Below are positions 10,217 to 14,832 of a DNA stretch of 57,773 nucleotides, piece after piece. Numbering within the stretch: position 1 is the first letter of the stretch; every line of letters starts with the position of its first letter. The position numbers and the translations under genes are program-made. Below the pieces are notes generated by a model. It ran no database searches, was not told where the DNA came from, and worked only from the letters and a program-made list of their open reading frames with translations. Source of the DNA: Bacteroidota bacterium (lineage in GTDB: Bacteria > Bacteroidota > Bacteroidia > SXHM01); the NCBI GenBank assembly GCA_947479755.1, contig CANKAM010000021.1, forward strand, positions 1 to 57,773, read 5' to 3'.

Positions 10217-10289
10217 TAGCGGGGGCAGGACTCGAACCTACGGCCTTCGGGTTATGAGCCCGACGAGCTACCAACTGCTCCACCCCGCA
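10217..10289 (-). tRNA. Initiator tRNA-fMet (CAT anticodon)
   Basis: Reads as a complete 73-nt cloverleaf: acceptor TGCGGGG/CCCCGCT, D arm GAGC/GCTC, anticodon stem TCGGG/CCCGA with loop CTCATAA (anticodon CAT), T arm GTAGG/CCTGC with TTCGAGT, discriminator A. Two features identify the initiator. The first acceptor pair is a mismatch (T1 opposite T72), and the anticodon stem has three consecutive G:C pairs next to the loop. The CCA end is not encoded (CTA follows). It is a lone tRNA, oriented opposite to its neighbours. Confidence 0.96.
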
Positions 10290-13401: not shown

Positions 13402-14655
13402 TTATTTCAGACCGAACGCTTTTTTTACTTTGGCAACATAGTCCAATTTTTCCCATGTAAACAATTCCACTTTCATTGTTTTTGTTTTGCCGTCAGGAGA
13501 TTTGAATGTTTTGGTAACGATTTCGTTTTTGCGACCCATGTGTCCGTAAGCAGCGGTTTCGCTGTAGATAGGAGTACGCAGTTTAAAACGTGTTTCAATA
13601 AAATATGGACGCATGTCAAAAATATCTTCTACAATTTTCGCAATCTGACCGTCATTCTTTTTAACTTTTGCTGTGCCGTAGGTGTTGATGTAAATACCCA
13701 TTGGCTTAGCAACACCAATTGCATAAGAAACCTGCACCAATACTTCATCGGCAACACCAGCAGCTACTAAGTTTTTAGCAATGTGACGGGTAGCATAAGC
13801 TGCCGAGCGGTCAACTTTTGAAGGATCTTTTCCTGAGAAAGCACCACCACCGTGAGCTCCTTTTCCTCCATACGTATCCACAATAATTTTACGTCCTGTT
13901 AAACCTGTATCGCCATGCGGACCGCCAATTACAAACTTACCTGTTGGATTGATGTGGTAAGCAATTTTATTATTGAACAGGTGAGCGTATTTAGGATATT
14001 TCTTTTTAACACGCGGAATTAAAATCTCAATCATATCCTTTTTGATTTTTGCGAGCATTTTTGCTTCAGCGTCAAAATCATCGTGCTGTGTTGAAACCAC
14101 GATGGCATCAATACGCACCGGAACATTGTTATCATTGTATTCCAATGTCACCTGCGATTTTGCATCAGGACGAAGGTATTTAATCTCTTTATTTTCTCTG
14201 CGCAATGCAGCAAGTTCCAACAAAATTCCGTGAGCCAAATCAAGAGCCAGCGGCATGTAGTTGTCTGTTTCTTTGGTTGCATAACCAAACATCATTCCCT
14301 GGTCACCTGCACCTTGTTCTTCTTTCTTTTTGCGTTCAACACCTTGATTAATGTCTGATGATTGCTCGTGAATTGCTGAAAGCACACCACATGAATTTGC
14401 TTCAAACATATACTCACTTTTTGTGTAACCTATTTTCTTGATTACATCGCGGGCAATGGTTTGAACATCTAAATACGCTTTTGATTTTACCTCTCCGGCA
14501 AGAACAACCTGACCTGTTGTTACTAATGTTTCGCAGGCAACTTTTGATTGCGGATCGAAGGCAAGAAAATTGTCTATTAATGCGTCTGAAATCTGGTCTG
14601 CAACTTTATCGGGATGTCCTTCCGATACTGATTCTGATGTAAATAAATAAGCCAT
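13402..14655 (-). CDS. metK: S-adenosylmethionine synthetase
   Basis: 417 residues. Makes SAM from methionine and ATP in the cytosol. Family signatures: the N-terminal [20 protein letters not shown] with the catalytic histidine in [16 protein letters not shown], the [12 protein letters not shown] hexapeptide region, [21 protein letters not shown], and [20 protein letters not shown] with the ATP-binding lysines. The protein is about 30 residues longer than the E. coli enzyme, as is usual in Bacteroidota. The leader of about 140 bases starts with a SAM-II-like riboswitch directly after a consensus -7 box, so expression is probably repressed by its own product. It is functionally paired with ahcY, which removes SAH. 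Confidence 0.98.
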
Positions 14656-14742
14656 GTTTTAAAATAGTTAATAGTTATAAGTTAATAGTTATTTGTTAAA
14701 CCTTGTAGGTAAATCTGAGGCAGGAAAGCCTGTAAAAGAAAT

Positions 14743-14789
14743 GGTTTTAGCATTTTTTTACGTGGTTGCAAGCAATCAAATCGTTCCAC
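14743..14789 (-). promoter_or_regulatory. SAM-II-type riboswitch in the metK leader
   Basis: Read on the minus strand, P1 is GTGG (14789-14786) with CCAC (14765-14762). The loop contains the conserved GATTTG (14782-14777) and GCTTGCA (from 14773). After P1 comes GTAAAAAAATGCTAAAACC, matching the SAM-II tail with GCTAAAA. The order GTGG..GATTTG..GCTTGCA.CCACGT.AAA..GCTAAAA is the SAM-II consensus as I know it; these riboswitches are best known from Alphaproteobacteria, with some in Bacteroidota. It begins about 10 bases after the -7 box and lies upstream of the gene for SAM synthesis. Downstream, ACCTACAAGGTTT could pair through GGTTT with the AAACC at the end of the aptamer, a possible expression platform (inference). 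Confidence 0.82.
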
Positions 14790-14798
14790 AAAGCGGGG

Positions 14799-14806
14799 CA
14801 AAAGTA
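14799..14806 (-). promoter_or_regulatory. -7 box of metK
   Basis: On the minus strand TACTTTTG, a perfect TAnnTTTG box. Transcription would start near 14794, a few bases before the riboswitch stem. Confidence 0.75.
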
Positions 14807-14832
14807 GAAATATTTACTGAACTGCAAATCTT

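Follow-up and report, generated by a model that had tools for sequence, protein, structure and literature searches.

What does a SAM-II riboswitch do to the gene that follows it in the Bacteroidota? Members of this phylum scarcely use Shine-Dalgarno sequences, and the mode of action of their riboswitches is therefore largely open. Here we address this question for a minus-strand element in front of metK in a 57,773-nucleotide stretch of DNA from a Bacteroidota bacterium (hereafter the window). A 2022 study of S. meliloti states that, prior to it, how the SAM-II class affects gene expression had gone unstudied (PMC9373788). Our literature search, conducted mostly outside subscription journals, found no published account of a SAM-II expression platform in Bacteroidota; since most subscription journals and supplements lay beyond its reach, the novelty of the platform described below is provisional.

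The aptamer and its gene

We searched the entire window against 4227 Rfam families and found a match to the covariance model RF01726, the long-loop type of SAM-II, at positions 14795-14737 (-), with a score of 64.4 bits (cut-off 44; E=3.8e-10). The match spans the full model (positions 1-60 of 60), and the 3.9 Mb genome holds no other SAM-II match. The P1 helix (GUGG 14789-14786 with CCAC 14765-14762) and the conserved GAUUUG, GCUUGCA and GCUAAA core are all present, with zero broken pairs in the RF01726 alignment. From the SAM-II structure, we take GCUAAA, which we located by reading the sequence (14746-14751, -), to be the 3' strand of the P2 pseudoknot. The pseudoknot sequences (UGC with GCA) are also found in the window, in a near-invariant region, and the RF01726 model gives the pseudoknot no score.

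A preliminary description of the locus, made from the letters alone, had quoted several strings that are indeed found on the minus strand: TACTTTTG at 14806-14799, GTGG at 14789-14786, GATTTG at 14782-14777, GCTTGCAACCAC ending at 14762 and GCTAAAACC at 14751-14743. Its central proposal, a SAM-II aptamer opening the metK transcript, is borne out by the covariance-model match, by the downstream gene, by the promoter motif and by conservation over hundreds of genomes. The family that it had implied was the wrong one. The alphaproteobacterial SAM-II model, RF00521, which it had put forward for scanning the element, gave no match over threshold (16.9 bits, cut-off 36), and the element belongs instead to RF01726, the Bacteroidetes and marine type. 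The RF00521 scan alone would wrongly have discarded the element, because its score lies under the cut-off whereas that of RF01726 is well above its own. Judged by the covariance model, the aptamer in the window is real and an ordinary member of a known family. Both the long-loop family (PMC2864571) and SAM-II in Bacteroides thetaiotaomicron (PMC1273637) have long been known. The window shares with the published long-loop type (RF01726; Bacteroidetes and marine, PMC2864571) the full-length match, metK downstream and a promoter at the aptamer edge, and its aptamer is undifferentiated from that type.

The gene behind the aptamer is a methionine/SAM gene, metK (13402-14655, -), identified by three Pfam domains (PF00438, PF02772 and PF02773) as encoding an S-adenosylmethionine synthetase of 417 aa. 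The consensus for the main sigma factor of Bacteroidota is TTTG / TAnnTTTG. Both elements can be read from the sequence on the minus strand, the -33-type TTTG at 14825-14828 and, 18 nt behind it, the -7-type TAnnTTTG box (TACTTTTG, 14799-14806). Such a box was mapped at -12 to -5 in F. psychrophilum (PMC9723704), and therefore transcription is predicted to start at ~14794, directly before P1. Among 145 non-redundant relatives, 123 have a TAnnTTTG box ahead of the aptamer, at a median of 12 nt before P1, compared to 3 for a control stretch.

The metK start codon lies 96 nt past the GCUAA of the aptamer and is preceded by an A/U-rich spacer (14656-14699, -) without a Shine-Dalgarno-like sequence near the start codon. 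At 14663-14699, this spacer, which abuts metK, contains a tandem repeat with a 14-nt unit (AGTTAATAGTTATA); relatives from the same genus have spacers that are similar but not the same. Upstream on the same strand are a pseudouridine synthase gene and panB. Elsewhere in the window, a tRNA gene at 10217-10289 (-) has CAU in its anticodon loop, as placed by alignment.

Having SAM-II before metK is ordinary in this phylum, as seen in most genomes of three sampled Bacteroidota groups: 139 of the 151 genomes of one related family, 196/295 of one order and 271/396 of another. All seven genomes of the genus have one copy each, and metK is the next gene at every locus with a readable downstream gene. 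The distance from GCUAA to the metK start codon in the leaders of relatives has quartiles of 74-88 nt. One relative (L203) has lost the long leader and starts metK only 13 nt past GCUAA; this could be a natural direct-masking variant.

A leader element complementary to the aptamer

The minimum-energy fold of the window RNA does not retain P1. Rather, it contains a 16-pair helix that starts at the predicted first base, in which GCUUUGUGG (14794-14786) pairs with CUACAAGGU (14708-14700) and GAUUUGA (14782-14776) pairs with UCAGAUU (14718-14712). The 5' strand of this predicted helix (14776-14794, -) overlaps P1 and the SAM-binding loop, and its 3' strand (14700-14718, -) is a candidate anti-aptamer element in the leader. 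Its pair probabilities are mostly 0.7-0.8. The window duplex has an energy of -18.7 kcal/mol, versus -10.4 for shuffles (p=0.0045), in a test that included the five-base 5' extension after the fold had been seen. Minus these five bases, which precede GUGG, the energy is -12.6 kcal/mol (p=0.067), and thus the extension matters. The switching helix AAACC/GGTTT suggested in the preliminary description is missing from the minimum-energy fold, where its GG pairs with the very start of the RNA as part of the 16-pair helix. In addition, the GCUAAA of the window pairs with the downstream leader less than in shuffles. The alternative fold also contains a predicted hairpin at 14732-14761 (-), formed by GUAAAAAAAUG (14761-14751) with CAUUUCUUUUAC (14743-14732) and seen in the minimum-energy fold only.

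We then followed the predicted fold of a growing window transcript. P1 had a probability of 0.87 at 45 nt, yielded to the alternative helix between 85 and 95 nt, and from 95 nt the latter was dominant (0.95); because the folding model includes neither pseudoknot nor ligand, it gives no quantitative measure of how the two folds balance. Within the genus, 85.7% of helix cells are paired, versus at most 52% with the partner strand slid. At columns 18/89 of the genus alignment, the window has a G-U pair, L002 a G-C pair and L007 an A-U pair. Just one pair of the helix changes on both of its sides, which in these few, similar sequences does not exceed the shuffle control.

Across the phylum, we examined 145 non-redundant metK leaders of Bacteroidota and found RNA complementary to the aptamer 5' half some 25-50 nt past the aptamer. 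The mean pairing energy of the two is -16.1 kcal/mol, whereas dinucleotide shuffles reach -11.6 and reversed leaders -11.3 (p~1e-22); when the leader segment was shortened and the aptamers were shuffled instead, the control gave -10.6 against -15.2 kcal/mol observed. No excess of pairing with the aptamer is seen for the DNA ahead of the promoter, and the excess for metK coding DNA is slight (0.6-0.8 kcal/mol, versus 4.4 for the leader). Placed side by side, the leaders contain pieces such as GCAAUC, GUCAAAUC and UUUUUCCUC, which are reverse-complementary to GAUUGC, GAUUUGAC and GAGGAAAAA in the aptamer. A leader is also fitted better by its own aptamer than by others of the same type (p=5e-12). 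In 90 reciprocal swaps between nearest relatives, which are not fully independent, own pairs won 64:19 (p=2e-9), and 33:11 among close pairs. We read this as co-variation of the aptamer 5' half with the leader element.

In 144 relatives, folded without pseudoknot or SAM, completion of the leader takes the probability of P1 from 0.85 down to 0.02, compared to 0.22 with shuffled leaders. The probability that the leader element is unpaired is 0.36 for the free fold and 0.57 when the aptamer is locked. In several genera (L008, L026, L029, L132 and others) a near-perfect complement of GCUAAA (CUUUAGC-like) lies 10-25 nt downstream and may form a second switching hairpin. A GCUAAA-UUUAGC hairpin as a general switch was rejected; it occurs in some genera, and the longest such helix is overall no longer than in shuffles.

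Could the complementarity be a by-product, with the aptamer working in another way, such as through the AAACC/GGTTT helix? Some pairing is expected between a purine-rich aptamer 5' half and a pyrimidine-rich leader, and the long downstream GCUAAA complement of some other genera would suit such a reading. However, dinucleotide shuffles that keep composition, as well as reversed leaders, fall short of the observed pairing, and the co-variation of aptamer and leader argues further against a by-product, which we thus consider quite improbable.

We propose that aptamer and anti-aptamer form an OFF switch on metK, with a probability of about 0.7, a figure that excludes the Rho step discussed below. 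By homology, the metK mRNA opens with a SAM-II aptamer, and the statistics and co-variation show that its leader carries an anti-aptamer complementary to the aptamer 5' half. At low SAM, this element, made some 40 nt after the aptamer, would invade P1 and the GAUUUG loop, and the resulting long helix, running from the first transcribed nucleotide onward, would allow metK to be expressed. At high SAM, the ligand would bind first and lock P1 and the pseudoknot, the pyrimidine-rich, G-poor leader would stay single-stranded and metK would be off. That SAM binds and represses metK is what we infer from the riboswitch class and the gene. We give even odds to the broader proposal that Bacteroidota metK riboswitches share a conserved platform in which a leader anti-aptamer competes with SAM for the aptamer 5' half and the output works without an intrinsic terminator and without masking of a Shine-Dalgarno sequence. 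Such an anti-aptamer would offer a reason for the 60-90 nt that separate the aptamer from the gene, and its co-varying positions are the exact bases to mutate for settling the output.

Candidate outputs

The two textbook outputs, intrinsic termination and start-codon masking, are not supported for Bacteroidota leaders. Intrinsic termination would be the output expected from alphaproteobacterial SAM-II loci, where a strong hairpin with a U-run is usual (88% of 78 loci at ≤-6 kcal/mol and 87% at -9). In Bacteroidota leaders these frequencies are 2% and 0%, respectively, and none was seen by eye in the leader of the window, making this route highly improbable.

The proposed switch may alternatively act on translation, with one fold favoring ribosome landing upstream of metK or with SAM hiding a landing site within the aptamer, at its A-rich AAAAAAAUG, and so acting on initiation from a distance. 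Such control has been proposed for S. meliloti metA, whose start codon is governed by a site in the SAM-II aptamer 74 nt away (PMC9373788), and the GCUAA-AUG spacing in Bacteroidota has quartiles of 74-88 nt. The start of metK just 13 nt past GCUAA in L203 would also fit, and translation stays alive as an output because the gap from the helix end to the metK start codon has a median of 31 nt (quartiles 27-35). Nonetheless, the predicted accessibility of the start region does not change from one fold to the other (0.545 vs 0.533, p=0.10), the freed leader pairs with early metK no more than controls do, and the start codon has no Shine-Dalgarno-like sequence. A translational output is thus possible but rather unlikely. 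As specific candidates, masking of the metK start and base-pairing between the leader and the first part of the metK coding RNA were both rejected, since neither differed from controls.

A third output would be mRNA stability, whereby the 5' end of the RNA is buried in the ligand-free helix and SAM exposes the leader to nucleases. The start of the helix at the predicted first nucleotide suits this idea. Effects of SAM-II on RNA stability were reported in S. meliloti, but there the mRNA was stabilized rather than destabilized at high SAM (PMC9373788), and we regard this output as improbable.

We also considered that SAM may govern a leader ORF starting at an NUG within the aptamer (MLKPFLLQAFLPQIYLQGLTNNY in the window), the translation of which would in turn govern metK. 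This triplet, at the aptamer 3' end (14753-14751 in the window), is AUG, GUG or UUG in 205 of 209 leaders and never CUG (AUG 160, GUG 31, UUG 14, AAG 3, CUG 0; one row was misparsed). However, the other frame without a built-in stop is just as open (z of 4.0 against shuffles, vs 3.1 for the frame of the NUG), the peptide is conserved in neither length nor sequence, and the U of NUG is probably fixed by its pairing partner in P2, the A of GCA. With frame openness unexceptional and the peptide not kept, a leader ORF from the in-aptamer AUG was rejected, and control of metK through it is the least probable of these routes. In L023 the in-aptamer AUG is in frame with metK.

For the output step alone, our tentative best guess is that Rho ends transcription prematurely on the leader when the proposed OFF switch has freed it. 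We favor this output because intrinsic terminators are absent and predicted start-codon accessibility is unchanged. Rho is encoded in the genome. The pyrimidine-rich leader is no independent sign of Rho, since its composition follows from complementarity to the aptamer, and it was therefore rejected as a stand-alone Rho signature.

Relation to other riboswitches

Sequence comparisons well support viewing the conserved anti-aptamer leader as a variant of the known SAM-II arrangement. The alphaproteobacterial SAM-II (RF00521; metA/metZ; PMC1273637, PMC9373788) shares with the window the GAUUUG, GCUUGCA and GCUAAA motifs, the P1/P2 plan and a promoter just before P1. In contrast, the window scores below the cut-off of that family (16.9 of 36 bits) and has a long, terminator-free anti-aptamer leader, whereas the alphaproteobacterial loci mostly have intrinsic terminators. 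Pairing between aptamer and leader in alphaproteobacteria is stronger than in shuffles (p~1e-6) but similar to that of reversed leaders (-28.9 vs -28.2). We attribute it to G+C-rich palindromic terminators, because reversed leaders pair equally.

Among the translational SAM-II and SAM-V riboswitches (Sargasso Sea metX; PMC6061858), SAM-II has a pseudoknot fold of the same kind. There, a Shine-Dalgarno sequence adjoins the aptamer, whereas in the window 96 nt separate the aptamer from the start codon and no Shine-Dalgarno sequence was found within or beside the aptamer 3' end or near the start codon (14751-14656). The proposed logic, with a ligand-bound fold exposing the leader to Rho, is like that of the Rho-dependent OFF riboswitches ribB and mgtA of E. 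coli and Salmonella (cited in PMC12121620); those have other aptamers and belong to another phylum, and a role of Rho at metK is putative.

The genome of the window also has a SAM-I riboswitch (L071 2315-2417, corresponding to C52:17314-17416; 83 bits), located before metH, the B12-dependent methionine synthase gene. SAM-I and SAM-II occur together in all seven genomes of the genus and in four of the six other genomes tested, whereas a 2007 survey found both in zero species (PMC2258182). This looks like a division of labor, with SAM-I for methionine synthesis and SAM-II for metK. In one genome (G113, C111:118716-119565) the two riboswitches are ~0.7 kb apart on opposite strands, and in another (G302, C3:115703-117293) SAM-I lies ~1.4 kb behind SAM-II, close to the end of metK.
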